In this document: positions 5,335-51,059 of the stretch, piece by piece
Position numbering within the stretch: position 1 is the first letter of the stretch
Layout of the letters: each line of letters begins with the position of its first letter
Source: Planotetraspora mira
Lineage (GTDB): Bacteria > Actinomycetota > Actinomycetes > Streptosporangiales > Streptosporangiaceae
Assembly (NCBI RefSeq): GCF_016863275.1
Contig: NZ_BOOO01000006.1
Coordinates: 1-64,000, forward strand
Direction of reading: 5' to 3'
Length of the DNA stretch: 64,000 nucleotides
The notes under the pieces: model-generated
Seen by the model: the letters and a program-made list of their open reading frames with translations, nothing else
What the model was told of the DNA's origin: nothing
The model's database searches: none
Made by a program: the position numbers and the translations under genes

Positions 5335-6264
5335 TCAGGTGACCGGTTCCGTGATCGTTGAACGCGCTGTAAAGCCGGGGGACGGGCCTTCGCCGTCCAC
5401 ACCGGCGACCGTGCAGGCGCGGGCGCCGGCCAGAGCACCGAGCCGCGCGCAGTCCTCAGGCGGCTGACCGGTGAGGCGTCCGTAGAGGAACCCGGAGACG
5501 AAGGCGTCACCGGCTCCCACTGTGTCGACGACCGGGCCCGGCGGAGGTTGCGCGGGGAAGTGCCGGATCCGGTCGCCGTCCGTCAGGACGTGGCAGCCGT
5601 CGGCGCCGTCCGTGCAGACCACGACGCGGGCCCTCCCCCGCGCGGCGATGTCACGCATGACCTCCTCCCGGCGGCCCCCGAGTGCGGTCGCGGACATGAA
5701 GACGAGGTCGGAGGAGTAGGCGAAGTCACGGTGGTAGTCGTTCTCACCGTCCCAGTCGTGCAGGTCGGTCGACACCGTCGTCCCTCCGGGGATGTCGGCG
5801 TAGACGTGCCGGGAGAAGTCGACGATCGTCAGGTGCACGTGCCGCGTGGCACGGAGGGCAGGCAGATAGAGGTCCCGGGGCAACCGCCGGCCGTCGGCGG
5901 GGCGCGGGTCGTGAAGCGACAGCCGCCGTCCGTCCGGATCGACGAGCAGGACGCTGCGGCGGGTACCCGCCTCGGACGGCGCCCAGGCGAAGTCGACGCC
6001 GCGCCCGGCGAGATGGTCGCGGACCAGCGCCCCCTGCGGGTCCTCGCCGATGAGGTCGACGAGCTTGACGCGCAACCCCATCGAATGGCACCAGAGTGCG
6101 ACGCCGGACCCGGTGTTGCCTATCCGGTCCACGACAGGCGGGACGGGATAGGTGTCGGCGTACGGCAGCGGCAGTTCGGGAACCCGGACGGTCGTGTCCA
6201 CGCCCGTGCCGCCGACGACGAGCACGTCCAGTGCATGATCACTACTGGTGTTCTTCGAGGTCAT
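5335..6264 (-). CDS. PfkB family carbohydrate kinase
   Basis: A 309-residue ribokinase/PfkB-type sugar kinase. The family signatures are the N-terminal GNTGSG region and the ATP/anion-hole motif DTVGAGDAFVSGFLYG at residues 247-262 with catalytic Asp. The substrate cannot be told from sequence. It is the last gene on the minus strand downstream of the maltose-type transporter, alpha-glucosidase and LacI regulator, so a sugar from that system is plausible. The ATG at 6264 follows GGGAGG closely. Oddity: the start codon, the ribosome binding site and the first dozen codons (MTSKNTSSDHAL) lie in the outermost, degenerate copy of the 53-base repeat described at 6231-6403. Confidence 0.88.
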   Translation of the reverse strand: MTSKNTSSDHALDVLVVGGTGVDTTVRVPELPLPYADTYPVPPVVDRIGNTGSGVALWCHSMGLRVKLVDLIGEDPQGALVRDHLAGRGVDFAWAPSEAGTRRSVLLVDPDGRRLSLHDPRPADGRRLPRDLYLPALRATRHVHLTIVDFSRHVYADIPGGTTVSTDLHDWDGENDYHRDFAYSSDLVFMSATALGGRREEVMRDIAARGRARVVVCTDGADGCHVLTDGDRIRHFPAQPPPGPVVDTVGAGDAFVSGFLYGRLTGQPPEDCARLGALAGARACTVAGVDGEGPSPGFTARSTITEPVT

Positions 6265-6403
6265 CGGGCCTCCCGCCGAATCCGTGCATGATCACGATCC
6301 GTGTTGTGCGAGCTCAGGGGCCATACGGCCGAACCTGTGCATGATCACGATGTGAGTTGTGCGAGGTCAGGGGGCATGCGGCCGAACCTGTGCATGATCA
6401 CGC
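6231..6403. repeat. tandem copies of an interspersed GTGATCATGCACAG repeat, 53-54-base period
   Basis: The core GCATGATCAC (minus strand GTGATCATGC) recurs at 6232, 6286, 6339 and 6392, giving units of 54, 53 and 53 bases plus a partial fourth. The units starting at 6286 and 6339 agree at about 47 of 53 positions. The 6232 unit is diverged but alignable over its whole length. Each unit has two conserved blocks when read on the minus strand: GTGATCATGCACAGGTTCG and, about 10 bases later, CCCCTGA(C/G)CT. The array fills the spacer between the LacI gene and the PfkB kinase gene and extends into both. A second array of the same family lies in cydD at 50281-50393. Confidence 0.9.
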
Positions 6404-7431
6404 GGGGGGTCGCGGTTGACGAGGGGGCCTGAGCTGGTGGAGCCGCGGACCACGAGCTCGGGCTGATACACCAGCTCGACGCGCTTGGCCGGCGTGCCGC
6501 CGATCTCGTCGAGCAACGTCTGGACCGCGGCCGCCGCCATCGCCCCGATCGGCTTGCGGACCGTGGTGAGCGGCGGGTCGGTGAAGGCCATCAGCGGCGA
6601 GTCGTCGAACCCGACGATCGACACGTCGCCCGGCACCGACAGCCCCCGCTCCCTGGCGGCCCGGATCGCGCCGAGCGCCATGAGGTCGCTGGCGCAGAAG
6701 ACGCCGGTGCAGCCGCGTTCGATCAGCGCGGCGGCGGCCGCCTGACCACCCTCGACGGAGAACAGCGAGTGCTGGATCAGCTCGTCGACCTCCGTCAGGC
6801 CGAGCAACTGCGCCATGGCCTGCCGGAAACCCTCGATCTTGCGGATCACCGGGACGAACCGCTGCTGGCCCAGCGCGAGGCCGATGCGCTCGTGCCCGAG
6901 GTCCACCAGATGTTGTACGGCGAGGCGGGCGGCCAGCCGGTCGTCCGGCGAGATGAACGGCGCGGAGATGGCCTCGTTGTACCCGTCGACCAGCACGATC
7001 GGCAGGCCGCGGTCGGTGAGCCGGGTGTAGCGATCCATCCGCGCCGTGGTGTCGGCGTGCAGACCGGACACGAACACGATGCCGGAGACGCCCCGGTCGA
7101 GGAGCATGTCGGTGAACTCGTCCTCGGGGGCGCCGCCGGGCTCCTGGGTGCACAGGATCGCCGTGTACCCGTGCTGGGTCAGTGCCTTCTCCACCGCCTG
7201 GGCGAACGCCGGGAAGATCGGGTTGCCCAGCTCCGGGATCACCAGGCCGATCAGGCCGTTGCTGCGCCCGCGTAACCGCTGCGGGCGCTCGTACCCCATG
7301 AGGTCGAGCGCGGTGAGGACGGCCTGACGGGTGGCGGAGGAGACCCCCGCCTTCCCGTTGAGCACACGACTCACCGTCGCTTCGCTGACCCCTGCCTGAG
7401 CCGCGATGTCGGCGAGCCTCGTGGTACTCAT
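6367..7431 (-). CDS. LacI family regulator, probable repressor of the maltose/alpha-glucoside operon
   Basis: A 354-residue LacI/GalR protein: N-terminal HTH (TRLADIAAQAGVSEATVSRVLNG, residues 4-26), then a periplasmic-binding-protein-like effector domain ending near ELVVRGS. It lies directly after the alpha-glucosidase gene, 10 bases away, in the malEFG-aglA order, so it most likely senses an alpha-glucoside and binds the palindrome at 12293-12311. Upstream in-frame ATGs at 7437 and 7449 overlap or abut the previous gene. The ATG at 7431 is chosen because LacI proteins usually start just before the first HTH helix. Oddity: the last 11 residues (RDHAQVRPHAP) and the TGA stop are encoded by the 53-base repeat, an add-on tail beyond the normal fold. 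Confidence 0.9.
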   Translation of the reverse strand: MSTTRLADIAAQAGVSEATVSRVLNGKAGVSSATRQAVLTALDLMGYERPQRLRGRSNGLIGLVIPELGNPIFPAFAQAVEKALTQHGYTAILCTQEPGGAPEDEFTDMLLDRGVSGIVFVSGLHADTTARMDRYTRLTDRGLPIVLVDGYNEAISAPFISPDDRLAARLAVQHLVDLGHERIGLALGQQRFVPVIRKIEGFRQAMAQLLGLTEVDELIQHSLFSVEGGQAAAAALIERGCTGVFCASDLMALGAIRAARERGLSVPGDVSIVGFDDSPLMAFTDPPLTTVRKPIGAMAAAAVQTLLDEIGGTPAKRVELVYQPELVVRGSTSSGPLVNRDPPRDHAQVRPHAP

Positions 7432-7441
7432 GAGCATTACT

Positions 7442-9085
7442 TTAGACATCGCCCGCGCGTCTGACGGCGTCCCCGAGATCGCCGGACCACCAGGTGACCG
7501 AGTCGGGTGCCAGGCGGATGACGCCTCCGGACACGGCCGGGCCCGAGCTCGCCAGGAGCAGGTCGCCGGGGCCCGCCTCCACCTCGATCCACTCGCTGGT
7601 CAGGTTGGCCACGCAGGAGAAGGACTCCCCCCGGGAGAACGCGAGCGTGCCCGCCGGGCTGTCCCGCCAGATCAGCGTGCCGTCTCCGAGCGCGGGGTGC
7701 TCGCGCCTCATCTTCAGCGCGGCGCGGTAGAGGCTCAGCATGGACGCGCCGTCCCGCGCCTGAGCCTCCACACTGAGATCGCGCCATCCGGGAGGCACCG
7801 GCAGCCAGCTCTCGGCGGTGCCGGGTGGGGCGAAACCGTGCGGCGGCTCCCCCGCGGCCGTCCAGGGGAGGGGCACGCGGCAGCCGTCCCGCCCGCTGTC
7901 GGGGTCGCGCAGCCGCTGGGGGTCGCGCAGGTAGTGCTCGGGCAGGTCGAGCACCTCCGGCAGGCCGAGCTCCTCCCCCTGGTAGATGTAGGCCGAGCCC
8001 GGCAGCGCCAGCATGAGGAGCGCCGCGGCCCGTGCTCTGCGCAGGCCCCGCTCGCCTCCGCCGTACCGGGTCACGTGCCGCTTGACGTCGTGGTTGGACA
8101 ACACCCACGTCGACGGCGCGCCGACGAGGGCGGCGGTCAGCAGCGACTCCTCGATGACCGCGCGGAACGCGGCGGCGTCCCACGGCGCCTTGAGGAAGTG
8201 GAAGTTGAAGGCCTGGTGCAACTCGTCGGGCCGGACATACCGGGCCAGTCTCTCCGGTGACGGCGCCCACGCCTCGGCCACGCCGATCCGCTCGCCCTCA
8301 TAGGAGTCGAGGATCCGCCGCCAGGCGCGGTGGATCTCATGCACGCCCTCCTGGTCGAAGAACGGCACCTCGGCGACGCCGATCATCTCCACGTGGCCCG
8401 GGTGTCCCACGTCGGGCAGGCCCGGCGCCTTCACCATGCCGTGCGCCACGTCGATCCGGAACCCGTCCACGCCGAGGTCGAGCCAGAACCGGAGGACGTC
8501 GGCGAACTCGGCGTGGACCTCCGGGTTGTCCCAGTTGAGATCGGGCTGCTCGGGGGCGAACAGGTGGAGGTACCACTGCCCGTCCTCGACCCTCGTCCAC
8601 GCGGGGCCGCCGAAGACGGACTCCCAGTCGTTGGGCGGCGACTCTCCGCCCTCTCCTCTGCCGTCCCTGAAGACGTATCGGTCGCGCTCGGGGCTTCCCT
8701 GCGCGCCCGCGAGGGCGGCGGCGAACCACGCGTGCCGGTCGGAGGTGTGGTTGGGAACCACGTCCACGATGATCCGCAGGCCCAGGGCATGGGCGTCCTC
8801 GATCAGCCCGCGCGCGTCGGCCAGCGACCCGAAGATGGGGTCGACGTCCCGGTAGTCGGCCACGTCGTAGCCGAAGTCGGCCATGGGCGAGGTGTAGAAC
8901 GGCGTCAGCCAGACGGCGTCGACGCCCAGCCCGGCGAGGTACGGCAAACGGCTCCGCACTCCCGGCAGGTCGCCGACGCCGTCGCCGTTGCCGTCCGCGA
9001 AACTGCGGACGTACACCTGGTAGATCACCGCGTCACGCCACCAGCGGGTGGCCACCGCGGACGGCTGTACGGCGAGCTCGGTCAT
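7442..9085 (-). CDS. aglA: alpha-glucosidase, GH13
   Basis: A 547-residue cytoplasmic GH13 enzyme that hydrolyses short alpha-glucosides (maltose, maltodextrins or isomaltose-type sugars) after import. The (beta/alpha)8 motifs are complete: DVVPNHTS, GFRIDVAHG with nucleophile Asp212, GVAEAW with acid/base Glu270, and SNHD with Asp332. There is no signal peptide. The ATG at 9085 is preferred because GGGGGA lies five bases before it; an ATG at 9114 that overlaps the malG stop (ATGA) would add 10 residues. It is the fourth gene of the malEFG transporter operon. Linkage preference (1,4 or 1,6) is not decided by what I can see. Confidence 0.92.
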   Translation of the reverse strand: MTELAVQPSAVATRWWRDAVIYQVYVRSFADGNGDGVGDLPGVRSRLPYLAGLGVDAVWLTPFYTSPMADFGYDVADYRDVDPIFGSLADARGLIEDAHALGLRIIVDVVPNHTSDRHAWFAAALAGAQGSPERDRYVFRDGRGEGGESPPNDWESVFGGPAWTRVEDGQWYLHLFAPEQPDLNWDNPEVHAEFADVLRFWLDLGVDGFRIDVAHGMVKAPGLPDVGHPGHVEMIGVAEVPFFDQEGVHEIHRAWRRILDSYEGERIGVAEAWAPSPERLARYVRPDELHQAFNFHFLKAPWDAAAFRAVIEESLLTAALVGAPSTWVLSNHDVKRHVTRYGGGERGLRRARAAALLMLALPGSAYIYQGEELGLPEVLDLPEHYLRDPQRLRDPDSGRDGCRVPLPWTAAGEPPHGFAPPGTAESWLPVPPGWRDLSVEAQARDGASMLSLYRAALKMRREHPALGDGTLIWRDSPAGTLAFSRGESFSCVANLTSEWIEVEAGPGDLLLASSGPAVSGGVIRLAPDSVTWWSGDLGDAVRRAGDV

Positions 9086-9111
9086 AGGGATCCCCCGGTT
9101 CTCACTATGTG

Positions 9112-9966
9112 TCATGCCTTCGTCGCGCCGGCGGTGAGGCCGGTGACGAGGTGGCGCTGTACGAGAAGGAACACAGCCGCCGCCGGGATGGCGATCAGCA
9201 CGGATGCGGCGGTGAGCAGGCCCCACTCCGCCTTGTGCTGCCCGACGAACTGGCTGAGGCCGACGGCGAGCGTGTATCTCTCGTCGCCGGTCATGAACGC
9301 GGTCGCGTAGGCGACCTCCGCCCATGCGGTGAGGAAGGAGTAGAAGGCGGCCACCGCGAGCCCGGGCTTGGCCAGTGGCAGGATCAGCCGCCAGAAGGTG
9401 CCGAACGGCGTGAGCCCGTCGACCCGCCCCGCCTCGTCGATCGTCACGGGGACGGTGTCGAAGTAGCCCTTCATCATCCAGGCGCAGAACGGCACGGTGG
9501 AGGTGAGGTACGCGACGACCAGCCCCGGAAACTGGTTGATGAGGCCGAGGCCGGCCATCAGGTTGTAGATCGGCACGATGAGGATCGCCACGGGGAACAT
9601 CTGTGTGATCAGCAGCATCCACATGACGGAGCGGAAGCCCGGGAACCGGAACCGGCTCACGGCGTATCCCGTGGTGGCCGACAGAAGAACGCCGAGCACC
9701 GCCGTGGCGAGCGACACGATGACCGAGTTGGCCGCCCACGTGAGGAACTTCGTCTGCCCGAGGACCTGCGTGTAGTTGGCCAGCGTCGGCTGCTCGAAGA
9801 GGCCGACCGACGCCGTCTCGATGACCTGCCGCGGTTTGAGCGACGTCAGGACCAGCCACGCGACGGGGAAGACGGAGACGACGCTCGCCGCGATGAGTGT
9901 GAGGTGCAACGCGACGGACTTCGCCGGTGAGCGCGAGTCCCTGGTCCTGTGAACGGCGCGGCTCAC
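9112..9966 (-). CDS. malG: MalG-type sugar ABC transporter permease
   Basis: A 284-residue inner-membrane permease of the CUT1 family with about six hydrophobic segments. The cytoplasmic EAA loop is visible (DEAGRVDGLTPFGTFWRLILPLAKPG), which docks onto the ATPase. The GTG at 9966 overlaps the malF stop as GTGA. It forms the membrane channel with MalF. There is no ATPase gene in the operon; the MsmK-type ATPase encoded divergently at 12535 is the likely motor. Confidence 0.92.
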   Translation of the reverse strand: MSRAVHRTRDSRSPAKSVALHLTLIAASVVSVFPVAWLVLTSLKPRQVIETASVGLFEQPTLANYTQVLGQTKFLTWAANSVIVSLATAVLGVLLSATTGYAVSRFRFPGFRSVMWMLLITQMFPVAILIVPIYNLMAGLGLINQFPGLVVAYLTSTVPFCAWMMKGYFDTVPVTIDEAGRVDGLTPFGTFWRLILPLAKPGLAVAAFYSFLTAWAEVAYATAFMTGDERYTLAVGLSQFVGQHKAEWGLLTAASVLIAIPAAAVFLLVQRHLVTGLTAGATKA

Positions 9967-10925
9967 CAGGCTTCTCCTTGCTGCTTGAGGGCGCGGCGGT
10001 ACACGCCGGCCAGCACGACGAGCAGAGCGAGGATCACCAGGCCCCACGCCGCCGAGCCGGAGTAGTCGCGGATGCCCTCGAACGCCTGGCGGTAGGCGTA
10101 GGTGACGAGGATCTCCGTGGCTCCGCCCGGCCCTCCCTTGGTCAGCAGGAAGATGACCGGGAACTGGTTGAACGTCCAGATCGTGCCCAGCAGCACGACG
10201 GTGCTCGACACGGGTCGCAGTCCGGGAACGGTGATGTGCCGGAACCGCTGCCAGGGGGTCGCGCCGTCGACCTCTGCCGCCTCGTGGAGTTCGCGCGGGA
10301 TGGACTGCAGACCGCCCAGCAGGGCGAGCATCATGAACGGCACGCCGAGCCACACGTTGCAGGCGATCACCGACACCTTGGCCCAGAACGGGTCGTCGAG
10401 CCAGCTGATCCCGCCGAAGCCGACGGCCCGGAGCATGGCGTTGACCACGCCGAACTCGCCGTTCAGCAGGTAGCGCCAGATGAACGCCGACACGAACGCG
10501 GGGACGGCCCAGGGCAGCACGAGCAGCACCCGGTACAGGGACCGCAAGCGCATCGGCCGGTTGAGCAACATCGCCATGCCCAACCCGATGCCCACGTGGA
10601 GGACGACGCACACGATCGTCCATACGACGGTCCAGGTCAGACGGGCGACGAAGGTGCTCGACGTCAGGATGTCGGCGTAGTTGGCCAGGCCCACGAACTC
10701 GTAGGTCGACGGGATGACGTTCATCCCGATCGTGCGGCCCATGTTGGCCTCGGTCGCGTCCGTGAGCGAGAGGTAGACGCCGCGGAGCAGCGGATAGCCG
10801 ACCAGCACCAGTGTCACGATGACGACCGGGGCGGTCATCGCCCACGCGTACCAGTGACGGGACAGGAGGCGCCGCGCCCCGGAAGGGGGCGCGGCCCTTC
10901 GACGCCCGACGACGTCAGTCGTCAT
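9963..10925 (-). CDS. malF: MalF-type sugar ABC transporter permease
   Basis: A 320-residue CUT1 permease with an N-terminal cytoplasmic stretch, a first membrane helix near residues 27-48, and an EAA loop (HEAAEVDGATPWQRFRHITVPGLRP). It is three bases downstream of the binding-protein gene and overlaps malG by four bases. It lacks the large periplasmic P2 loop of E. coli MalF, as usual for Gram-positive homologues. Confidence 0.92.
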   Translation of the reverse strand: MTTDVVGRRRAAPPSGARRLLSRHWYAWAMTAPVVIVTLVLVGYPLLRGVYLSLTDATEANMGRTIGMNVIPSTYEFVGLANYADILTSSTFVARLTWTVVWTIVCVVLHVGIGLGMAMLLNRPMRLRSLYRVLLVLPWAVPAFVSAFIWRYLLNGEFGVVNAMLRAVGFGGISWLDDPFWAKVSVIACNVWLGVPFMMLALLGGLQSIPRELHEAAEVDGATPWQRFRHITVPGLRPVSSTVVLLGTIWTFNQFPVIFLLTKGGPGGATEILVTYAYRQAFEGIRDYSGSAAWGLVILALLVVLAGVYRRALKQQGEAW

Positions 10926-10928
10926 CTG

Positions 10929-12221
10929 TCACAGGCTCCAGCCCTTGAGGATGCCCTGGTAGGCCGTGGCGACGTCCTTCAGCATCGGCTCCGTGGAGGT
11001 CTGCCCGCCGGCCAGCTTCTGGTAGCCCTCGACGAGCGGCTGGAACAGCGAGGCGGCCTCGGGAATCCAGGGACGCTCGACGGCGGACTCCATCGGCTTC
11101 TGCCACTGCGCGATCTTGGGGTTCGCCGTGGCCTCCGGCGCGGTGTAAGCGGAGGTGCGGGTGGGCAGCAGGCCGAGCTTGCCCGCGATGGCGGCCTGGC
11201 TCTCGGTGGAGTCCATGAACTGGACGAACAGGTAGGAGGCGGCCAGATTCTTGGAACCGGCGTAGACCGTGTAGTCGTGACCGCCCACGGGCGAACCCGC
11301 CTTCACCGTTCCGGCCGGGACCGGAGCGACGCCGAAGTTGTCCGGGTCGTCCTTGAAGACCTTGCCGCCGAGGTTGTCGGCGTTCGACCAGGGCCCATTG
11401 AAGATCATCGCGACCTTGCCTTCCTTGAAGGCGGTCTCGGCGTTGGTGTAGCTGTCCTGCAGCGCGGGCTTGACGGTCGCGCCCGACGTGATCAGGTCCT
11501 CGACGAGCTTCACACCCGCGGTCGTCTGCGGCGAGGAGATGGTGATCTTCTTGTTCGGCACGTCGACGAAGTCGCCGCCCTCGCCGTAGATGAAGGGCAG
11601 CAGGAAGTACGCGTCCACGTTCAGCGCGAGGCCGTCGGCGCCGGCCTTGGACTTCACGTCGAGCGCGACCTTCTTCAGGTCGGCCATCGTCGCCGGAGGA
11701 GCGTCATAGCCGGCCTTCTTCAGCAACTCCTTGTTGTAGAGGAGGCCGAGCGTGTCGGTGACCTGCGGGACGCCGTACGTCTTGCCGCCGTACTTGCCGC
11801 TCGCCGCCGGAGAGGGGAGGAACTCCTCCGGATTGACCAGGGCGGGCGTGCCGTCGAGCGGCGCCAGGTAGCCCAGGGAGGCGAACTCGGCGACCCAGCC
11901 GACGTCGGTGCGGAGCACGTCGGGAGCGCCGGCGCCGGACTGGGCGGCGGTCTTGAACTTGTCGCGCGCCTCGGCGAACGGCACGTTCACGTAGTTGACC
12001 TTGATCTTCGGGTACTTGGCCTCGAAGTTCTTGATGAGCTCCTGGAACGCGGGCGCTTCCGTGGTGGCGTCGGAGGTGTCCCACCAGGTGACCTCGCCGG
12101 ACACGTCAGCCGGGGCGACGCTCTGTTGGGGGGTGCCGGTGCCGGTGTCGCTGCCGCCGCAGGCGGAGGCCGCCAGGGCGAGCGCCGCAGCGACCACCAC
12201 GGCGGAGATGACTCGCCGCAT
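10929..12221 (-). CDS. malE: maltose/alpha-glucoside-type extracellular binding lipoprotein
   Basis: A 430-residue solute-binding lipoprotein. The signal peptide runs from MRRVISAVVVAAALALAAS to the lipobox Cys (AASAC), followed by a Gly/Ser/Thr-rich tether. The mature part is an extracellular solute-binding protein family 1 fold with aromatic and acidic residues typical of maltodextrin binders (EVTWWDTSD, MIFNGPWS). The ATG at 12221 has GAGGAG nine bases upstream; a longer open reading from the far side of the operator is rejected. It is the first gene of malEFG-aglA. The ligand assignment is inferred from the GH13 neighbour. Confidence 0.9.
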   Translation of the reverse strand: MRRVISAVVVAAALALAASACGGSDTGTGTPQQSVAPADVSGEVTWWDTSDATTEAPAFQELIKNFEAKYPKIKVNYVNVPFAEARDKFKTAAQSGAGAPDVLRTDVGWVAEFASLGYLAPLDGTPALVNPEEFLPSPAASGKYGGKTYGVPQVTDTLGLLYNKELLKKAGYDAPPATMADLKKVALDVKSKAGADGLALNVDAYFLLPFIYGEGGDFVDVPNKKITISSPQTTAGVKLVEDLITSGATVKPALQDSYTNAETAFKEGKVAMIFNGPWSNADNLGGKVFKDDPDNFGVAPVPAGTVKAGSPVGGHDYTVYAGSKNLAASYLFVQFMDSTESQAAIAGKLGLLPTRTSAYTAPEATANPKIAQWQKPMESAVERPWIPEAASLFQPLVEGYQKLAGGQTSTEPMLKDVATAYQGILKGWSL

Positions 12222-12534
12222 GATGTTGTGCTCCTCAGGCTCAGGGGGATTTGCCCGGAACGTAACAGGGGGGCGAGCACCCTTGAAAGGCCTTGCTGAA
12301 ACTTTCAGCAAAGTTGTTACATTTGCCTGGAGTCAGCCGGTCACCCCAGGTCATGAACAAGCCCTGACAAATGGCCCTAACAACGGGAAACGTAGCAGTA
12401 ACGCCAGGTTTCACAGTGATGCTGGATTTCTCACAACATGTATGGACACAAGCGATCAGACGCGATGTACTACCTCATCAATCACACCGGCCGCTGGGGA
12501 TCCGGGCTCGTGCGCCCGGGAGGAACGAGCTTTC
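12222..12534. other. divergent regulatory region between malE and the msmK-type gene
   Basis: 313 bases without a gene. It holds the palindrome at 12293-12311 described separately and the leader of the ATPase gene with GGGAGG at 12518-12523. It is richer in A and T than its surroundings around 12300-12480. I could not settle on a convincing -35/-10 pair in either direction. Confidence 0.6.
12293..12311. promoter_or_regulatory. palindromic operator candidate for the LacI-type regulator
   Basis: Perfect 9-bp inverted repeat with a single central base, TTGCTGAAA-C-TTTCAGCAA. Size and symmetry fit a LacI-family dimer operator. It lies about 72 bases upstream of the malE start and about 220 bases upstream of the ATPase start, so one site could control both directions. 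The LacI gene at 6367-7431 in the same operon is the expected ligand-responsive repressor. Confidence 0.7.
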
Positions 12535-13812: not shown

Positions 13813-13834
13813 CCCCACAGCCGTCCCCGCCGTC

Positions 13835-14455: not shown

Positions 14456-14546
14456 CCGCATCACCTCCTTGTGCGACAACAACAGTGTCCGACTGAGGTT
14501 TCAGGTTCATTACGGCATTGGGTCATGGCATTTGCCTCCCGATTCT

Positions 14547-14578
14547 CCCCGGCTCGTACACCGCCGTGCGGGCCGGGG
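14547..14578. other. hairpin in a divergent promoter region
   Basis: The 232-base spacer 14456-14687 between the ACT-domain gene and the sensor kinase gene holds a CCCCGGC (14547-14553) / GCCGGGG (14572-14578) inverted repeat with an 18-base loop. Its role is unclear; it could be a regulator site or leader structure. The spacer is otherwise unremarkable, becoming AT-richer toward the kinase start. Confidence 0.35.
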
Positions 14579-14687
14579 TGGGAGACCTCCCCATCCCGGC
14601 CGGGGCCATTGAGAACTTTGACCAACTTTGGCAATGGCTTTGGAATGTCGCGAATTTATGCGGGATGACCATGAGTAACCTCGGGGC

Positions 14688-41119: not shown

Positions 41120-41237
41120 GGGGCGACTCCTTTCATCCGTTCCGTCACTTGGACAACCACACACCTGATCTCAGCATTCCACCGCACGGCGCCGGGTATC
41201 AGCACACGGGACCTCCTTCGCGAAAAGGAGCCACCGC

Positions 41238-42920: not shown

Positions 42921-42925
42921 CCGGC

Positions 42926-45316
42926 TCAGCCCAGGTCGAGACCGAACAGCAGCGGGTCGTGGTCGGACGAGCGGAACGCGCCCGGCGAGTACAGCGCCGG
43001 CGGGTTGAACTCGGTGTTGTAGTCCATGAACCGGCCCTCATCCGCGTTGATGTGCCAGATCGTCGCCCCGGTCACCCGCTTGAGTAGCTGCTTGCCGACC
43101 ATCACGTGGTCCAGCTCGCCCGACAGGCTGTCGAAGACGTAGCTGTAGCGGTCCTGCTTGTCGAGGAACTTCTTGCTCAGGCTCGTGAGCTTCCCGGCCT
43201 CCAGCGTGTGGATGGGGTCCTCCTCGCCGTAGGCGTTGAGGTCGCCCGCCACGACGGGGTTGGGCAGGTTGAACGTGTCGATCAGCTCGAGCACCGCCTG
43301 CGCCTGGCGGACACGCTCGGCGTTGAAGCAGCTCTGGCCGTCGCCCTGGTCGACGTCGGCTCCGGTCGCGCCGTCGCAGCCCTTCGACTTGAAGTGGTTG
43401 ACGATCATGGTGAAGATCCGGCCGTCGTCGTCGTCCCTGGTGCGCTGGAACATCTGGATCAGCGGCGGCCGGCGGAAGACCGGGTCGGTGGAGGACTGGG
43501 CGGCTCCCACGGGCTTCACCACGGCGGGCTTGTAGATCAGGGCCACCTGGATCTCGTCGGTTCCGGGGACCGGGGAGGTGATCCCCTTGTACGTGCCCGC
43601 GCCGACCTCGGCGTTCAAGGCGTCCACCAGGGTGTTCAGCGCGGTGGTGCCGTTGTTCTCGACCTCCATGAGGCCCGCCACGTCCGGGTCCAGGCCCTTC
43701 AGCGTCGCGACGAGCTTGGCGAGCTGGCGCTGCCGCTCCTCGTCGGTGTTGGCGCCGCGCTTGTTCAGCGTGGTGAACCAGTTGAGGGTGTTGAGGCTCG
43801 CCACCTGGACGTCGCCGCCCACCTTGGCCGGCTTGGACGGACGCGGGTTGTCGGCGGCGAAGGCCACCGGCGAGGTCGGCTCCACCCGGTAGAGGTCGAA
43901 GCCGTAGGTCAGGATGCCGGTCAGCCCGGTGGTCCCGTCACCCACGCGGACGGTGTTCGAGCCGTTCGTGTGGTACGGCAGGACCGGGGGGTTCTGCACG
44001 TTGGACCCGTCGTCCAGCAGGATCCGGCGGGCCTGGTTCTCGGCCGGGTCGACGTTGTCGCGGTCGGTCGGCTGGAAGAGCCGGCCCTTGGCGGACAGGG
44101 TGAGCTCCCCGAAGCGGCCCAGGTTGAAGACCTCGGAGACGGTGAGTTCCTGGGGGAACGTGACGAGCACGCCCTCCAGCGATTCGAGGGTCGCGCCGGA
44201 GGCGAGCGGCAGCCTCACCGCGGCGGTCTTGACCGTCCCGGTGCCGCAGACGTCCACGGCGGAGACCGGGGACAGCTCCGTGAGGCCGTTGAACTCGACG
44301 ACGGTGCCGGTGACCCGGACCCGGTCGCCGACGGCGGCGGGCCTGGGGGTGAACACGAACACCGCGTCGGAGGTGGCCGGGTTCGCGTCAGGCGTCGAGT
44401 CCTGGACGTAGAAGCCGCTCAGCTGGTTCGTGCCCTGGAAGTCCGCGGTCACGACTCCTTCGACCCGGACCGCCTGGCCGACGAGGGGCGAGGCGTCGCC
44501 CGCGCCCTGGACGTCGGCGATCTGGTGCGTCACCGGAACGGCGCACGAGGACGGAGTCGTGGGGGTCGGAGTGGGAGTCGGGGTCGGCGTGTCCGACGGG
44601 GTCGGGGTCGGCGTCGGCGTGTCCGAGGGGGTGGGGCTCGGGGTGCTCCCCCCGCACGGAGCGGCGGCGGAGGCGGTGTTGTGCGGAGCCGGGGCGCCCG
44701 CCTCGAAGTCCGCGGCGTTGCTGTCGGTGTCGGCGCAGCCGCCGTCCTTGCGCAGCGCGGCGGTGCTGTTGGTCAGCGCGGGGGCGGCGGCGCCCTCGAA
44801 GTAGTTGGCGGTGCCGTAGCCGACCAGGTCGGCGATGTCGGCGGTCTGCTCGGGCGTGCACGGGATGGAGCCGCCGTTGCAGGCCAGGCCTGTGGCGGAC
44901 CGGACCAGCGCGACCTTCCCGGCGGTGCCGCTCAGGGCGAGGTTCCCTGTGGTGTCCGGGGTCGGGAGCGGTCCACTCGGGGTCGTGCCCGCCGCGAGCT
45001 GGACGAGGTGGTACTGCCCCGGAGTGAGAGAGCCGGAGAGGTCCACCTTGTTGGAGGAGAACGGTCCGGTGCCGGTGGCGCTGGCGTACTGGACCGACCA
45101 GCCGTTGAGGGAGACCGTCGCGGCGCTGCGGTTGAACAGTTCCACGTAGTCATTGGTCAGCGGGGCGCCGCTGTTGCCGCCTCCGCCGTACACCTGGCTG
45201 ATCACCACGGTGCCGGGCTCCGCCGACGCCGGGGTCAGCGAGAGCGTGGTGACACCGGCCACCACGAGGCCGACGGCCGCGAGCGTGGCGACGGCGCGCA
45301 GGGCCTTTCTCGGCAT
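42926..45316 (-). CDS. ExeM/NucH-like secreted endonuclease
   Basis: A 796-residue exported protein. The signal peptide (MPRKALRAVATLAAVGLVVAG...ASA) is followed by a lamin-tail domain (VVISQVYGGGGNSGAPLTNDYVELFN), a Pro/Thr/Ser linker of about 35 residues, an OB-like region (VGQAVRVEGVVTADF), and a C-terminal endonuclease/exonuclease/phosphatase domain: VASLNTLNWF, GLMEVENNG with catalytic Glu, VAGDLNAYGEED and SSDHDPLLF. It should degrade extracellular DNA or RNA, for phosphate or nucleotide scavenging. Start choice is open: an in-frame ATG at 45367 adds 17 residues and has a TAAAGT -10-like box placed for a leaderless mRNA. Confidence 0.88.
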   Translation of the reverse strand: MPRKALRAVATLAAVGLVVAGVTTLSLTPASAEPGTVVISQVYGGGGNSGAPLTNDYVELFNRSAATVSLNGWSVQYASATGTGPFSSNKVDLSGSLTPGQYHLVQLAAGTTPSGPLPTPDTTGNLALSGTAGKVALVRSATGLACNGGSIPCTPEQTADIADLVGYGTANYFEGAAAPALTNSTAALRKDGGCADTDSNAADFEAGAPAPHNTASAAAPCGGSTPSPTPSDTPTPTPTPSDTPTPTPTPTPTTPSSCAVPVTHQIADVQGAGDASPLVGQAVRVEGVVTADFQGTNQLSGFYVQDSTPDANPATSDAVFVFTPRPAAVGDRVRVTGTVVEFNGLTELSPVSAVDVCGTGTVKTAAVRLPLASGATLESLEGVLVTFPQELTVSEVFNLGRFGELTLSAKGRLFQPTDRDNVDPAENQARRILLDDGSNVQNPPVLPYHTNGSNTVRVGDGTTGLTGILTYGFDLYRVEPTSPVAFAADNPRPSKPAKVGGDVQVASLNTLNWFTTLNKRGANTDEERQRQLAKLVATLKGLDPDVAGLMEVENNGTTALNTLVDALNAEVGAGTYKGITSPVPGTDEIQVALIYKPAVVKPVGAAQSSTDPVFRRPPLIQMFQRTRDDDDGRIFTMIVNHFKSKGCDGATGADVDQGDGQSCFNAERVRQAQAVLELIDTFNLPNPVVAGDLNAYGEEDPIHTLEAGKLTSLSKKFLDKQDRYSYVFDSLSGELDHVMVGKQLLKRVTGATIWHINADEGRFMDYNTEFNPPALYSPGAFRSSDHDPLLFGLDLG

Positions 45317-45576
45317 GGACCGGAGGCGACCACGGGCATGGTCATAAGCACGGGATAAAGGGCGCATGACCCGGACTTTATGAGGATATGACCGTGCCAG
45401 TCGGCCCTACCGGTGACTACAGAATGAAATCGTATGAACTTGCCAATCAGCGGAGTCTCGGGACGTATGGGTCCTGCCGTTGCGCTCCACACCGTTTACG
45501 CACCGATTCCTCATGTCGCCCTCAGACGGCACTCAGGAAACGGGAACGAGACTCGGCAATGCGCCACCGGGAAAGG

Positions 45577-46050
45577 CTAGGAAACGGTTCCGGCGAGCAT
45601 CCCGCCCACGGAACGGCCGTGCACCATCCCCGGCAGTACGACCACGACCGGGCAGTGCGCCCTCAGCAGGCAGGCGGCCACGATCGGGTTGATGACCGGG
45701 TACGGCTCCGCGTCGGCCTCGTCGGCTCCGAGCACCAGCAGGTCCGCTTCGGCGGCGGCGTGCAGCAGTACCCGCGCGGGCGACCCCTCGACGACGGCGG
45801 GCTCCACGTGGTCCTCACCGAGCTCGTCGACGACCAGCCTGGCCATGTCGGCGGCGGCACGACGCTCGTCCTCACGCGAGCTCCGGCCGGCCAGTGGTGC
45901 GTACGGGGCGTGGAGCCCGCCCGACCATTCCCAGGCGTACACCGCCTCGACGCTCGCGCCGCGCAGGCGGCCCTCGGCCGCGGCCCAACGAAGCGCGGCC
46001 GACGACGCCGCCGAGCCGCTGATACCCACCACGATCTTCGCCTGATTCAC
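45577..46050 (-). CDS. universal stress protein, UspA family
   Basis: A 157-residue single-domain Usp: KIVVGISGSAASSAALRWAAAEG at the N-terminus and the C-terminal ATP-binding pattern LLVLGADE...AACLLRAHCPVVVV. Usp proteins bind nucleotides and modulate stress and low-oxygen survival. The usual G-2x-G-9x-G(S/T) site is only partly kept (ADEADAEPYPVINPIVAACLL), so ATP binding is uncertain. The start is GTG at 46050 behind GAGGCGGGA. The 260 bases between it and the nuclease gene hold nothing I can name. Confidence 0.85.
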   Translation of the reverse strand: MNQAKIVVGISGSAASSAALRWAAAEGRLRGASVEAVYAWEWSGGLHAPYAPLAGRSSREDERRAAADMARLVVDELGEDHVEPAVVEGSPARVLLHAAAEADLLVLGADEADAEPYPVINPIVAACLLRAHCPVVVVLPGMVHGRSVGGMLAGTVS

Positions 46051-46251
46051 AATCCCGCCTCGCTCTCCGCCCCAAGTCTCTCCTACCAGGATTAATCAGG
46101 TGTTGCCGGGGCGAAACGTCAGAAAGACAAAATAGTCGACGGCATGAACCTCCGGGGTCGGGTCAGGGTTGACCCCGATGGCGGGCCGTGGAGACGGCCA
46201 ATACGCTGGCGGGCATTCCGGGAGTTCCGGGGGCCGCATAGGAGGGAAGAC

Positions 46252-47019
46252 GTGCCGACGAGTCCGATCGACGACTACGTGGCCGGGCTCCGCCGTCTTC
46301 TCCGCGGTCCGGTCCGCGCCAGGCGGGACCTGCTCGCCGAGGCGCGGGACGGGCTGCTCGACGCGGCCGAGGCGTACGAGGCCGATGGCCACACCAGGGC
46401 CGAGGCCGAGCGACTGGCGATCGCGGACTTCGGGCTCGCCACCGAAATCGCCCCCGGCTTCCAGGAGGAACTCGCGGTCGGCCAAGGGCGCAGGACCGCG
46501 GCGCTCCTGTTCGTCAGCGTGCCGGTCACCGCGTTGATGTGGAGCGTGGTCTGGGAGTTCTTCCCCCAGTCACCGGCCGCGCCCACTCCGCCGGAGTGGT
46601 TCTGGACGGTCAGCAGACTTCTGGACTACACACAGTTCGCGACCGGTGTCGTGGGCGGCGTCGCCCTGCTCGCCCTCGGCCGGGGGTTGCGGGTGCTGCG
46701 GCGGCCCAGGATCCTGACTCGCGCGCTGGGGCTCCTGGTGTTGGTCCAGATCCCGGTCAGGGTCGCGATGAGCATGGCCCTCGTGCAGGGCGCCGACGGC
46801 CCTCCGGGGTTCGGCGACTACGCCCCCGGCGTGGCCGTCTCTCTGATCACCTACGCGCTGGGAACGTGGCAGTTCGTCAGCGCGGTGCTCTGCGTCCACC
46901 ACAGCCGGGCGTTCGTTCATCGTGAGGGGTCGAGCACGCTCCCGATCGCCGTCGTGAACGACTTCCAGGCCGACCGCTCCCCCGCGAGCGCCGCGCGGCC
47001 CGAGTCCGTCAGGCGGTAG
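46252..47019 (+). CDS. HAAS/permease-prefix domain membrane protein
   Basis: A 255-residue protein. Residues 1-75 form the helix-rich domain found in proteins encoded next to PadR regulators (SPIDDYVAGLRRLLRGPVRARRDLLAEARDGLLDAAEAYEADGHTRAEAERLAIADFG). Four membrane helices follow (about 82-103, 120-140, 152-172, 182-205). The GTG at 46252 is chosen for its GGAGGG. The gene converges with the PadR gene, and their coding regions overlap by 103 bases, so the last 34 residues are antisense to the PadR C-terminus. Function of the family is not settled; it is thought to work with its PadR partner in signal response. Confidence 0.8.
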   Translation: MPTSPIDDYVAGLRRLLRGPVRARRDLLAEARDGLLDAAEAYEADGHTRAEAERLAIADFGLATEIAPGFQEELAVGQGRRTAALLFVSVPVTALMWSVVWEFFPQSPAAPTPPEWFWTVSRLLDYTQFATGVVGGVALLALGRGLRVLRRPRILTRALGLLVLVQIPVRVAMSMALVQGADGPPGFGDYAPGVAVSLITYALGTWQFVSAVLCVHHSRAFVHREGSSTLPIAVVNDFQADRSPASAARPESVRR

Positions 47020-47240
47020 GTGCGCCGCTTGCGCCCGCCCGCCACAGCCCACTCCCCGGCCAGGTAGCCGGCCCGCTCCAGCCTGCGCAGGGCCGGGTAG
47101 ACGGTGCCCGTCGGGACGTCGAGCGCGCCACCGCTGCGCTCGCGCAGCGCCTCGATGATGGCGTAGCCGTGGAGCGGCTCACGCTCCACCACGGAGAGCA
47201 ACAGGGCATCCATGTGCCCTCGCAGCGTGTCGGCGTTCAC
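46917..47240 (-). CDS. PadR family transcriptional regulator
   Basis: A 107-residue winged-helix repressor: MDALLLSVVEREPLHGYAIIEALRERSGGALDVPTGTVYPALRRLERAGYLAGEW is the standard PadR DNA-binding unit, followed by a short dimerisation helix. The start is GTG at 47240. It is divergent from cydA across an 85-base spacer containing three 15-base iterons (47264-47311), so it probably controls both itself and cydABDC. The partner HAAS gene overlaps its 3' end on the opposite strand. Confidence 0.88.
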   Translation of the reverse strand: MNADTLRGHMDALLLSVVEREPLHGYAIIEALRERSGGALDVPTGTVYPALRRLERAGYLAGEWAVAGGRKRRTYRLTDSGRAALAGERSAWKSFTTAIGSVLDPSR

Positions 47241-47263
47241 GGTCGCAGCCTATCCCGGTCCAC

Positions 47264-47311
47264 ATGTAGGGAGTCTACATGTAGGCTGTCTATATGTAGA
47301 CTCTCTATGTA
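47264..47311. promoter_or_regulatory. PadR operator iterons between padR and cydA
   Basis: ATGTA recurs at 47264, 47279, 47294 and 47307. The first three head 15-base units ATGTAGGGAGTCTAC, ATGTAGGCTGTCTAT and ATGTAGACTCTCTAT. Each unit ends in CTAC or CTAT, so adjacent units form TACATGTA-like dyads, the ATGT/ACAT pattern of PadR sites. The last one runs to within three bases of the cydA Shine-Dalgarno. Confidence 0.78.
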
Positions 47312-47325
47312 TTGAGGAGCCCCCC

Positions 47326-48510
47326 TTGGACGTCGTCGACCTCGCGCGGACGCAGTTCGCCGTGACGGGCAGCCTGCACTTCCTGTTCGTCGTGCTGACC
47401 CTCGGCCTCGCGCCCCTTGTCGCGATCATGCACACGCGCTACGCGATCACCGGCAATCCCCTCCATGAGCGGATGACCCGCTTCTGGGGGCAGATCTATG
47501 TGATCAACTACGCGCTCGGCGTGTTCACCGGCCTGGTCATGGAATTCCAGTTCGGACTGAGCTGGAGCGGCCTGTCGCACTACGCGGGCGACGTCTTCGG
47601 CGCGCCGCTCGCCATCGAGACCCTGGTGGCCTTCTTCCTGGAGTCCACGTTCCTCGGCTTGTGGATCTTCGGCTGGCACCGGTTACCCCGGGCGCTCCAC
47701 GTGACCTGCATCTGGCTGGTGACGCTGACCGCCTACGCCTCGGCCTTCTGGATCATGGTGGCGAACTCGTTCCTCCAGCACCCGGTCGGCTCCGTCGAAC
47801 AGGGCGGCCGCCTGGTGCTTCGGGACTTCGGCGCACTGCTCACCAATCCCAACCTGGTCTTCGCGCTCCCCCACGTGATCAGCGCCGGGCTGTGGACCGG
47901 CGGGTTCGTCGTCATGGGGGCCAGCGCGTACCACCTGTTCCGGCGCACGAAGGAGCAGGAGTTCTTCACCCGGTCGCTCCGGATGGGCGTGGTGACCGCC
48001 TTCATCGGCTCCCTGTTCACCGTCGGTTTCGGATACGCCCAGTTCGGCGTGATCGAGGCCACCCAGCCGGACAAGTTCGACGCCGCACCCGAGGCCGCGC
48101 TCGGGCTCATGATCGGGATCGGGCAACTCCTCCAGTTCGGCGTGATGTTCCTCCTGCTGCCTCTGCTGTTCCGGAACCTGCTCGCCCGGTGGCGGTGGCT
48201 GCACCCGGTCCTGATGCTCATCACCCCGCTGCCGTTCGTGGCGGCGATCGCCGGATGGCTCGTGCGCGAGATGGGCCGTCAGCCGTGGCTGGTGTACGGA
48301 AAGCTCTCCGTGGCCGACGCCATGACGCCGGGACTCTCCAGGACCGCCATCACCGGCTCGTTCATCGGCTTCGCCGGCCTGCTCGGCCTGCTCGCGATCA
48401 TCGACTACCTGCTGATCGCCCGTGCCGTGCGCCGCGGGCCGGAACAGGTGTCCCTCGGCATGCCGGACCGGCCCGCCGAGCCCGCGCCCATGCCCGCCCA
48501 CTCCCTCTGA
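47326..48510 (+). CDS. cydA: cytochrome bd oxidase subunit I
   Basis: A 394-residue quinol oxidase subunit carrying hemes b558, b595 and d. It has the N-terminal heme-ligand region RTQFAVTGSLHFLFVVLTLG and the GRQPW signature (REMGRQPWLVYG). It is clearly shorter than E. coli CydA (522): the quinol-binding Q-loop is of the short type. The TTG at 47326 is chosen because GAGGAG lies six bases before it; an upstream frame would include the iterons. It is first of cydABDC, a high-affinity oxidase used at low oxygen. Confidence 0.93.
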   Translation: MDVVDLARTQFAVTGSLHFLFVVLTLGLAPLVAIMHTRYAITGNPLHERMTRFWGQIYVINYALGVFTGLVMEFQFGLSWSGLSHYAGDVFGAPLAIETLVAFFLESTFLGLWIFGWHRLPRALHVTCIWLVTLTAYASAFWIMVANSFLQHPVGSVEQGGRLVLRDFGALLTNPNLVFALPHVISAGLWTGGFVVMGASAYHLFRRTKEQEFFTRSLRMGVVTAFIGSLFTVGFGYAQFGVIEATQPDKFDAAPEAALGLMIGIGQLLQFGVMFLLLPLLFRNLLARWRWLHPVLMLITPLPFVAAIAGWLVREMGRQPWLVYGKLSVADAMTPGLSRTAITGSFIGFAGLLGLLAIIDYLLIARAVRRGPEQVSLGMPDRPAEPAPMPAHSL

Positions 48511-48521
48511 GGACCACGACC

Positions 48522-49283
48522 ATGGAGATCATCTGGTTCGGCGCCCTCGCCGTCCTGCTTGTCGGCTACTTCGCACTCGAGGGCTTCGACATCGGGCTCG
48601 GCATCCTGCTGCCCGTGCTGGGCCGGTCGCAGGAGGACCGCGACCGGCTCGTCGGGGCCATGGCGCCGTTCGTCCTCGCGGGCGAGGTCTGGCTGGTCGC
48701 CCTCGTCGGCGTGCTGTTCGGCGCCTTCTCCACCCTGGAGGGCGCGGTGCTCAGCGGGCTGTACCCCCTGGTCGTGGCGCTGCTCCTGACGTGGATCGTC
48801 CGGGACGCCGGCCTGTGGTTCCGCCGCCGCGCGGACGGCGCCGCGTGGCGGACGCTTTGGGACGGCGCCATCTGCCTCGGCTCGGCCGGGCTGGCACTGA
48901 CCTGGGGCATGACGCTGGTGGCGCTGGCCCGCGGACTGTCGGCTCCCCTGCTCGCCCCGGCAGGCGTCGCCGGGGGGATCGTGGTCGCGCTGGCGTTCTG
49001 TCTCCACGGCTGGACCTTCGCGGCGTGGCGGCTGCCCGGCGACCCGGCGGTCCGCGGAGCGCGGCGCACCGGGCGGGCCCTGCTGCTGACGGCTCTGACG
49101 GCCGCGATCCCCGCAGTCCTGGCCGTCGCCGTCGTGGCCTCCGCCCTCATCGAGCACGCCGCCCCGCCGGAGACCCTGACCACCCTGGGTGCCATTGTGT
49201 TGCCGTGCGTCCCGATCCTCGTGGGCGCGCAAGTATGGGTGTGGCGCACCTTCAGCAGGGGTGCGCTGCCCACGTTCTTCTGA
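48522..49283 (+). CDS. cydB: cytochrome bd oxidase subunit II (short form)
   Basis: Membrane partner of CydA with the family N-terminus YFALEGFDIGLGILLPVLGR and GEVWLVALVGVLFGAF. At 253 residues it is well below the usual 330-380, ending after roughly seven helices without frameshift or obvious decay. It is 11 bases after cydA with GAGGA before the ATG. Confidence 0.88.
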   Translation: MEIIWFGALAVLLVGYFALEGFDIGLGILLPVLGRSQEDRDRLVGAMAPFVLAGEVWLVALVGVLFGAFSTLEGAVLSGLYPLVVALLLTWIVRDAGLWFRRRADGAAWRTLWDGAICLGSAGLALTWGMTLVALARGLSAPLLAPAGVAGGIVVALAFCLHGWTFAAWRLPGDPAVRGARRTGRALLLTALTAAIPAVLAVAVVASALIEHAAPPETLTTLGAIVLPCVPILVGAQVWVWRTFSRGALPTFF

Positions 49284-49316
49284 CCGTCTGCCGGCCGTCG
49301 TCCGATTGGGCCTCCG

Positions 49317-51059
49317 TTGCACAAGGATCTTCTGCGGCTCGCACGATCCGAACGGACCGTGCGGCCACACCTCGCCGCCTGCCTGGCCGCTGCCGTGGCG
49401 GCGGGGCTCCTCGTGCTCGTGCAGGCGGAACTGCTGGCGGGAGTGCTCTCCGGCCGGTTCACCGTGGCCGTCCTGCTCCCGCTTGCACTGGTTGTGGCGG
49501 CGCGGGGGCTGCTCGGCTGGGGACGGGGCGTCTTCGCCGGTCGCACGGCCACGGCCCTGAAGTCCGCGCTGCGCCGCCGGCTGTTGCCGCGTTTCCAGGA
49601 GCCGGACGCCGCCGTTTCCCGGCGATCCGGTGAGCTCGTCACACTCGCAGGACGCGGGCTGGACGCCCTGGACGCCTACCTGACCGGCTACCTGCCGGCG
49701 GTCGCCGTGGCGGGCGTCATCCCGATCGCGGTCGTCGTGCGGCTCTTCGTGGCCGACCTCGAGACCGCCGTCATCGTCCTGCTCACGCTGCCGCTCATCC
49801 CGATCTTCGGCGCGCTGGTCGGCTGGACCACCCGGGCGGTGACGCAGCAGCAGTGGGAGGCGCTGACCAGGCTCGGCGGCCACTTCCTCGACGTCGTCCG
49901 CGGCCTTCCGACCCTGCGGGCCTTCGGCCGGGCACGCCACCAGGCGTCGGTGATCCAGCAGGTCGCCGCGGCCCACCGGACCGCGACGATGCGGACGCTG
50001 CGGGTCGCCTTCCTGTCGTCGCTGGTCCTCGAACTCGTGGCGTCGCTCTCCCTCGCTCTGGTCGCCGTCCCCGTCGGCCTGCGACTGCTGTCGGGCTCGC
50101 TCGACCTCCACACGGCGTTGCTGGTGCTGCTCCTGGCCCCGGAGGCCTACATCCCCCTGCGGGCCATGGGCACCACGTTCCACGCCGCCATGGAAGGAGT
50201 CGCCGCCGCCGACCAGGCCTTCTCCCTCATCACCCCCACCCCCGCCACTCCCACCACCACCCCCGCCACCACAACCGCCCGTGATCATGCACAGGTTCGC
50301 GAACAGCCCGCTGACCTGCCGAAACCTGTCCGTGATCATGCACAGATTCGCATTCACGCCCCTGACCTGCGGATTTCCGGCCGTGATCATGCACCGCCGG
50401 GGATCCGGTTCGAGGGGGTGACCGTCCGGTATCCCGGCCGCGAGGAGAACGCCCTCGACGCCGTCACCTTGCGGATTTCGCCGGGCGAGAGGGTGGCGAT
50501 CGTGGGCCCGAGCGGAGTCGGCAAGAGCACGCTGCTCCACGTCCTGCTCGGGTTCGTCACACCGTCCGAGGGCCGGGTCCTGATCGACGGCGCCGACCTC
50601 GCCGGGCTGGACCTCGACGAGTGGCGGCCCCGGCTCGCCTTCGTGCCCCAGCGCCCCCACCTGTTCGCCGCGACGGTCTCCGCCAACATCTCCCTGGGCT
50701 CCGACGCCTCGCCGGACGAGGTCCGTACGGCTGCCGCGGCCGCTCAGGCGGCCGAGTTCGTGGCGGCCCTGCCGTACGGCTATGAGACGGAACTCGGCGA
50801 ACGCGGCGCGAACCTGTCGGCGGGCCAGCGCCAGCGGGTCGCGCTCGCCCGCGCGTTCTGCCGCCCGTCGGCCGAGGTGCTCCTGCTCGACGAGCCGACC
50901 GCACGCCTGGACGGCAGGAGCGAGGCCGCGGTCGTCGAGGCCACGCGGAGGCTGTCCGAGGGAAGGACCTCGATCATCGTCGCCCACCGCCCCGCCATGA
51001 TCGAACTTGCCGACCGAGTCGTCCGCCTGCACGACCACGCGCAGACAGGAGCCGCATGA
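49317..51059 (+). CDS. cydD: thiol reductant ABC exporter, CydD subunit, with repeat-derived linker
   Basis: A 580-residue half-transporter that with CydC exports cysteine/glutathione-type thiols or otherwise supports assembly of cytochrome bd. A six-helix membrane domain (about residues 10-300) precedes a nucleotide-binding domain from about 360, with Walker A VGPSGVGKST (about 396-405), LSAGQRQRVALARA signature and LLLDEPTARLDG. Oddity: between them lie a Thr/Pro stretch and residues 322-359, encoded by two full and one partial copy of the interspersed repeat also found at 6231-6403, here in 51-base (17-codon) units. The TTG at 49317 is the most upstream reasonable start; no strong Shine-Dalgarno is visible. 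Confidence 0.9.
   Translation: MHKDLLRLARSERTVRPHLAACLAAAVAAGLLVLVQAELLAGVLSGRFTVAVLLPLALVVAARGLLGWGRGVFAGRTATALKSALRRRLLPRFQEPDAAVSRRSGELVTLAGRGLDALDAYLTGYLPAVAVAGVIPIAVVVRLFVADLETAVIVLLTLPLIPIFGALVGWTTRAVTQQQWEALTRLGGHFLDVVRGLPTLRAFGRARHQASVIQQVAAAHRTATMRTLRVAFLSSLVLELVASLSLALVAVPVGLRLLSGSLDLHTALLVLLLAPEAYIPLRAMGTTFHAAMEGVAAADQAFSLITPTPATPTTTPATTTARDHAQVREQPADLPKPVRDHAQIRIHAPDLRISGRDHAPPGIRFEGVTVRYPGREENALDAVTLRISPGERVAIVGPSGVGKSTLLHVLLGFVTPSEGRVLIDGADLAGLDLDEWRPRLAFVPQRPHLFAATVSANISLGSDASPDEVRTAAAAAQAAEFVAALPYGYETELGERGANLSAGQRQRVALARAFCRPSAEVLLLDEPTARLDGRSEAAVVEATRRLSEGRTSIIVAHRPAMIELADRVVRLHDHAQTGAA
50281..50393. repeat. interspersed GTGATCATGCACAG repeat inside cydD, 51-base period
   Basis: GTGATCATGCACAG-type cores start at 50281, 50332 and 50383, giving two units of exactly 51 bases and a partial third. 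Blocks GTGATCATGCACAGRTTCG and CCCSCTGACCTGC match the units at 6231-6403, where the period is 53-54. Here the length is a multiple of three and the frame stays open, encoding RDHAQVREQPADLPKPV, RDHAQIRIHAPDLRISG and RDHA. Confidence 0.9.

Follow-up and report, generated by a model that had tools for sequence, protein, structure and literature searches.

The question raised by this stretch of DNA is why one short repeat should be kept in exact register both behind genes and inside a protein-coding sequence. The stretch (the window) comprises 64,000 nucleotides of Planotetraspora mira, contig NZ_BOOO01000006.1, and contains two arrays of a two-block unit, i.e., a core followed by a second block, CTGACCT, that is found in both. 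One array lies in the spacer between a LacI-type gene and a PfkB-type kinase gene, the other inside cydD. Our preferred answer, put forward tentatively, is that the arrays are sets of sites for a putative sequence-specific DNA-binding protein, whose probable role is to mark or insulate the ends of genes. An initial annotation had interpreted them as a dispersing element whose genic copies persist only if they are in frame and cut to a multiple of three. The observation behind it is confirmed as real and is larger than first noted; its interpretation is partly supported.

A phased two-block repeat in the P. mira genome

The repeat family is far above background. In the window, GTGATCATGCACAG is matched 17 times with at most 3 mismatches against 3.9 expected, and none of 100 shuffles reached 17. 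Genome-wide (9.03 Mb), there are 983 copies of the core with at most 2 mismatches and 14 of a reversed control, so that elsewhere, too, the core is not at background frequency. Arms and loci were counted in 1.246 Mb (about 1.25 Mb) of the same genome (G000), consisting of contig C1, most of C2 and C4, and the window. Cores are unevenly distributed (C1 holds 84 of the 983 in 4 percent of the genome, and C4 has no array between 253 and 426 kb); because the sample is denser than the genome average, core counts from the sampled contigs should not be scaled up.

The consensus of 177 units from 20 fetched regions consists of GTGATCATGCACAGRTTCG, about 12 variable bases, CTGACCTGC, about 12 further variable bases and a C. 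Non-core bases show little likeness between units despite the exact 53-bp phasing. The sample holds 57 arms of at least two units in 38 loci. When genic and intergenic unit lengths are tabulated, 172 of 187 spacings are exactly 53 bp and a spacing of 51 bp occurs only twice, both times in cydD. Nineteen loci are two-armed, 18 are one-armed and one is the cydD array. The arms of two-armed loci converge on a centre in a mirror-like manner, and in 36 such loci from four species the innermost unit retains just GTGATCATGCA, with inner core starts 23 to 171 bp apart.

In the mechanism that we propose, the putative protein would read a class-wide 11-bp core, GTGATCATGCA (GTGATCTTGCA in some genera), together with a lineage-specific suffix, or dialect; units of Planotetraspora carry the second block CTGACCTGC as well. 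A site set would have inward-pointing arms of some three to six units each, with a facing pair of bare cores as its centre. The distance of about five helical turns between units suggests that the proteins would be aligned on one face of the DNA. Several cores would act jointly. Among the exact 11-mers of the sample, 178 of 182 lie in arrays and four lie outside (0.59 expected by chance), and because cores occur almost only in arrays, several copies appear to be needed together. The four outside (C1:100831, C2:9454, C4:153964 and C4:204911) may be remnants or chance occurrences.

These numbers also bear on a DNA-uptake-like signal with species dialects, spread via biased uptake and recombination. 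Uptake sequences are mostly single dispersed motifs. Since cores are almost never single here, with only the four exact 11-mers outside arrays, a low density and a strict tandem phasing, we regard such a signal as very improbable. The likeness lies in a conserved core combined with a lineage dialect: a study on DNA uptake sequences in Neisseriaceae describes dialects in which a conserved core is joined to a remainder specific to the lineage and uniform throughout a genome (PMC3630211). Clustered phased arrays and a second block set the present repeat apart from these.

The initial annotation recognised no named repeat family, and literature searches of open-licence papers likewise did not find this repeat described. 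Among the matches listed, none of the papers containing one of the 11-mers was on bacterial repeats by title. A plasmid search left the spacer array unmatched. A viral origin was considered and rejected, as six stretches on five viral contigs resemble unrelated short repeats and include no convergent pair.

Gene ends and the array inside cydD

Positions, frames and intergenic gaps were evaluated with a purpose-made simple codon-usage gene caller. Outside genes lie 37 of the 38 array loci, and upstream of 36 of the 56 non-coding arms there is a gene in sense orientation; in 29 of these 36 the gap from stop codon to arm is -35 to +28 bp. At 26 of the 38 loci an arm is found within 30 bp of a sense stop codon. 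The gap is -4 in seven arms, where the stop is therefore supplied by the core's own TGA. As many arrays start directly behind a stop codon, their likely job would be to mark, end or insulate transcription. Eukaryotic rDNA terminators (Sal-box/TTF-I) are arrays of repeated, oriented protein sites just behind genes; they offer an analogy for how a putative termination role of the arrays could work, with no homology implied. If the arrays do act at gene ends, they would bear on transcription ending or insulation in high-GC actinobacteria.

The spacer array of the window (6229..6401, minus strand; cores at 6229, 6282, 6335 and 6388) is one-armed and sense to the LacI-type gene. Its three spacings are all exactly 53 bp; units of 53-54 bases had been proposed, of which 53 stands and 54 does not. 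The LacI/RbsR-like regulator (6367..7449, minus strand) has its C-terminal tail, RDHAQVRPHAP, read through the first array unit and terminates at the TGA of block 2. The last core lies within the N-terminus of the PfkB-family sugar kinase (5335..6264, minus strand), where it is read as SDHALDV. A comparison of 223 flanking proteins revealed that these two genes also flank an array in Microbispora rosea (locus L220), with a different suffix. The M. rosea LacI ortholog, unlike that of the window, ends ahead of the array, and the kinase has PDHALDV at the position matching SDHALDV.

In the sample, only cydD contains a whole array. This gene (49317..51059, plus strand) encodes a thiol reductant ABC exporter subunit (TIGR02857), and its array (50281..50396, plus strand) has cores at 50281, 50332 and 50383, i.e., the spacings are 51 and 51, in frame, as originally described. 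The cores are placed in the linker joining the membrane and ATPase domains and read RDHAQ, RDHAQ and RDHAP. The array is present with 51-bp spacing in all five Planotetraspora genomes, with three cores, or four in P. thailandica; the named Planotetraspora among the CydD relatives are P. silvatica, P. phitsanulokensis, P. kaengkrachanensis and P. thailandica. Of 75 further CydD loci fetched, the 53 examined (L033-L085, with L086-L107 left out) yielded no array; the linker could not be aligned in L043, L082 and L085, and one three-mismatch match is present in L082. Occurrence at the same place in all orthologues, which had been raised as an argument against a dispersing element, thus holds for cydD within Planotetraspora and fails outside the genus.

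The cydD units retain the rare codons GAT, CAT and GCA (0.099, 0.160 and 0.037 as fractions of their amino acids), AAT in one P. silvatica unit being the sole exception. Compared with the consensus, both complete 51-bp units in the window lack one base ahead of block 2, so that the TGA of this block is read in frame as GAC. From this one gene, the sequence supports the idea that coding copies would have to be trimmed. The related claim of one fixed frame applies to LacI, PfkB and CydD, which all read Asp-His-Ala, and not to the family as a whole. Among sense in-gene matches of the sample with at most one mismatch, 9 give a TGA stop, as anticipated for another frame, 8 give Asp-His-Ala (in six genes, five of the eight cores lying in the window) and 18 are in the third frame. 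Most of these 18 are isolated one-mismatch coding matches, but one forms the start of a conserved coding sequence.

Conservation of arrays and the suffix switch in P. thailandica

Arrays are largely shared between species: for 10 of the 11 G000 loci compared, an array is present at the matching site in at least one of the four other Planotetraspora genomes (G001-G004). Suffix and core counts suggest that G004 is P. thailandica and G002 is P. phitsanulokensis. On C1, G001, G003 and G004 share the arrays of loci 0 and 1, and the array of locus 0 is also found in G062, a genome of a related genus. At locus 3 an array occurs in G001 and one lone core in G002; in G002 the arrays of loci 4, 5 and 6 are shorter, and locus 2 (60118) is without an array in both G001 and G002. 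Four C4 loci carry arrays in the same order in G001, G003 and G004, one being short in G001. G002 has no array at locus 1, with 19 bp between the anchors, and a difference of one 53-bp unit was also seen; either may be a gain or a loss. At locus 0 of G002 (G002:C1 ~562712 vs G000:C1 21829-22749), the adjoining small gene is inverted and flanked by single outward-facing cores, as if the inversion ran through the array.

The core itself diverges slowly. In 34 orthologous unit pairs between G000 and G003 (pairing thresholds 23 and 25 of 34), core positions 0-10 differ by 0.019 per site and the variable parts by 0.192 and 0.129, i.e., core divergence is 7 to 10 times below that of the variable parts. 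What follows the core can change. G004 has 838 matches to GTGATCATGCAGAA (CAGAA-type) vs 103 to GTGATCATGCACAG (CACAG-type) with at most one mismatch, and G000 has 72 and 656, respectively. At six shared loci, the 11-mer is followed by GAA in 31 of 44 G004 units and by CAG in 27 of 48 G000 units. In recognisable orthologous unit pairs, GAA is present in G004 in 4 of 5 units compared with G000, 5 of 6 with G003 and 4 of 5 with G001; the remaining G004 unit has GAG at a coding start. The suffix has therefore changed at shared sites. In cydD of P. thailandica the same change, CAG to GAA (Gln to Glu), is found in three of four units. At G000:C4:104041-104157 (also L310), a called coding sequence starts with the last core of a three-unit array and begins MIMHSRPADR in G000 and MIMQSRTTDR in G004, the suffix change included.

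Low core divergence, exact spacing, clustering in arrays and the replacement of the suffix at shared loci, within a protein as well, speak for sites of a DNA-binding protein able to change its specificity. If so, P. thailandica and its sister species would provide a natural experiment in which recognition sites changed specificity in place genome-wide, and cydD would be a rare case of a DNA motif retained in the coding sequence of a linker, the price being rare codons and an amino-acid change.

Several points weigh against this reading. Because units were recognised by the core itself, its divergence is underestimated, and recognisable orthologous unit pairs with G004 number only 5 or 6. G002 has far fewer cores, and its arrays are missing or shortened at several shared sites. 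Strict 53-bp phasing is limited to Planotetraspora, the spacing being 51 to 54 bp in G062 and 22 to 57 bp in other families. In G062, 15 fetched loci, picked for a similar centre, share a homologous left arm, centre and right arm and look like copies of one another, something that sites maintained by selection alone would not require. No sense gene is found upstream of any arm at 7 of the 38 loci. The bias in gap type is not significant, with 11 of 37 array gaps convergent, 23 codirectional and 3 divergent, compared with 19, 62 and 19 percent of all gaps; enrichment between convergent genes was accordingly rejected.

Copying between arms and occurrence in other genomes

Sequence has been copied between the arms of a locus. 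Across the 36 two-armed loci, 17 of 369 left-right unit pairs, which include some loci orthologous between species, lie above the 99.9 percentile of the null, and 11 of the 17 occupy mirror positions. In one G004 pair all 53 bases agree. Of neighbouring pairs within an arm, 4 of 160 exceed this level. The non-core identity of mirror-position units is 0.522 vs 0.483 after index shuffling (0 of 500 shuffles), a value that includes near-identical unit copies. Template switching upon fold-back pairing, or conversion of one inverted arm by the other, is the likely cause. In our mechanism the arms would template each other, probably by fold-back pairing, and whole elements would have multiplied in some lineages.

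Inverted arms could also act at the RNA level, the transcribed arms forming a long hairpin or binding an RNA-binding protein and thereby ending or stabilising transcripts. Besides the inversion, this possibility fits the hairpins at several centres, the greater likeness of non-core parts in mirror units, a slightly C-rich sense strand (0.365 C vs 0.291 G) and the many arrays directly after stop codons. However, facing cores do not covary (index-matched and shuffled identity are both 0.9076; 259 of 500 shuffles) and arrays with a single arm are frequent, at 18 of 37 non-coding loci; a role in RNA is weaker for these reasons. The suffix switch in G004 is unaccompanied by a visible matching change in block 2, and RNA pairing does not require exact spacing. 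An Rfam search of six array loci left the arrays unmatched and gave one sub-threshold match, outside the array. We consider an RNA element improbable.

The main rival to protein sites is a selfish element, either REP/BIME-like or a fold-back miniature element, in which inverted tandem-repeat arms are copied by some enzyme and tolerated at 3' ends; dialects would then reflect successive waves together with arm-to-arm copying. REP-like mobility without a RAYT is a serious possibility, though we hold it doubtful. It accommodates the copy-like G062 loci, the cross-arm pairs above the null, the patchy presence in Microbispora and a 34-bp palindromic centre, GTGATCATGCAATGCACGTGCATTGCATGATCAC, that recurs at five G054 loci (L260-L264; four identical, one with a single change). 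Species-specific families and a 3' bias are likewise features of REPs, described in passages of PMC3733652 as high-copy short extragenic repeats, mostly downstream of genes, inverted or composite and forming families with short tags, the unit being an imperfect palindrome of 20-40 bp with a GTAG or CGTC tag. The arrays resemble REP, BIME and REPIN elements in being high-copy, extragenic and mostly 3' of genes. Unlike a REP, the consensus unit is not itself a hairpin and has neither such a palindrome nor such a tag, its two blocks recur at a fixed 53 bp, and the arms converge on one centre.

Mobility has further difficulties. The linked RAYT-type transposase that the initial annotation had suggested is refuted: of the 16 array-bearing genomes tested, 10 lack PF01797 (RAYT, Y1), namely G000-G003, G062, G054, G053, G092, G186 and G215, and it is matched in G004, G037, G086, G120, G193 and G199. 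In the sequence searched, no transposase recurs between split arms, where P450-like and unrelated genes were found; at G000:C4:463483-465253, a gene beside a similar gene, both of which we take to be P450-like, lies between right-pointing and left-pointing five-unit arms. No target duplications were noticed by eye at the loci compared. Fold-back transposons have inverted arms of tandem subrepeats; the arrays may differ from them, as neither a transposase nor target duplications were found in the sequence and loci covered. The sharing of 10 of 11 loci with other species, the low core divergence and the change of dialect at shared loci in G004 also count against a selfish element. Dispersal finds partial support in the copy-like loci of G062; a mainly recent dispersal does not. 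Mycobacterial interspersed repetitive units (MIRU) are tandem actinobacterial units of similar length that lie between genes and overlap stop and start codons; compared by description, the present units differ in that they diverge between blocks, often form converging arms and have a core common to other families.

This wider occurrence was examined in the host's family and class by searching for tandem GTGATCNTGCA pairs whose core starts are separated by 35 to 61 bp. In the family, 16 of 250 genomes, in 6 of 68 genera, bear arrays, i.e., all five Planotetraspora, 5 of 15 Microbispora, G062, G054 and two genomes each of genera g34 and g50. Outside the family, 353 genomes of the class were searched, and five of them (G310, G312, G371, G430 and G518) have at least four pairs, with other suffixes and spacings; three more have one or two pairs that resemble coding or simple repeats. 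That the core recurs in further genera and families with different suffixes and spacings counts in favour of protein sites. The patchy presence within Microbispora means that the responsible protein should be findable by comparing gene content. Flanking genes are shared between genera as well: besides the LacI and PfkB genes, an 82 percent identical gene, presumably a cyclopropane-fatty-acyl-phospholipid synthase, precedes an array in both G000 and G054. About 0.2 such cases are expected per genus pair by rough arithmetic, so the sharing is suggestive only.

A bolder proposal, unlikely in its full form, is that the arrays represent an undescribed chromosome system of actinobacteria. Its protein would combine recognition of a class-wide core with a faster-evolving, lineage-specific second specificity. 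Bound to phased arms, a few hundred in each genome and mostly located at gene ends, it would form a barrier or insulator acting in both directions. The arrays would be kept by fold-back copying, and in cydD they would override protein sequence.

Two candidate regularities were rejected. A LacI gene in G310 is not a third shared host gene, as the array there is antisense to it and sense to the facing gene, and an apparent plus-strand run along a G062 contig was a listing effect, both strands being present. The unit itself varies between genera. G054 has mainly GTGATCTTGCA with 41-bp spacing, and its block 2 is in the inverted orientation (GCAGGTC). In G310, which belongs to another family, 22-bp units of GTGATCATGCAGCCGCTCGGCC form head-to-tail runs, e.g., at C9:47885-48071 (L316).

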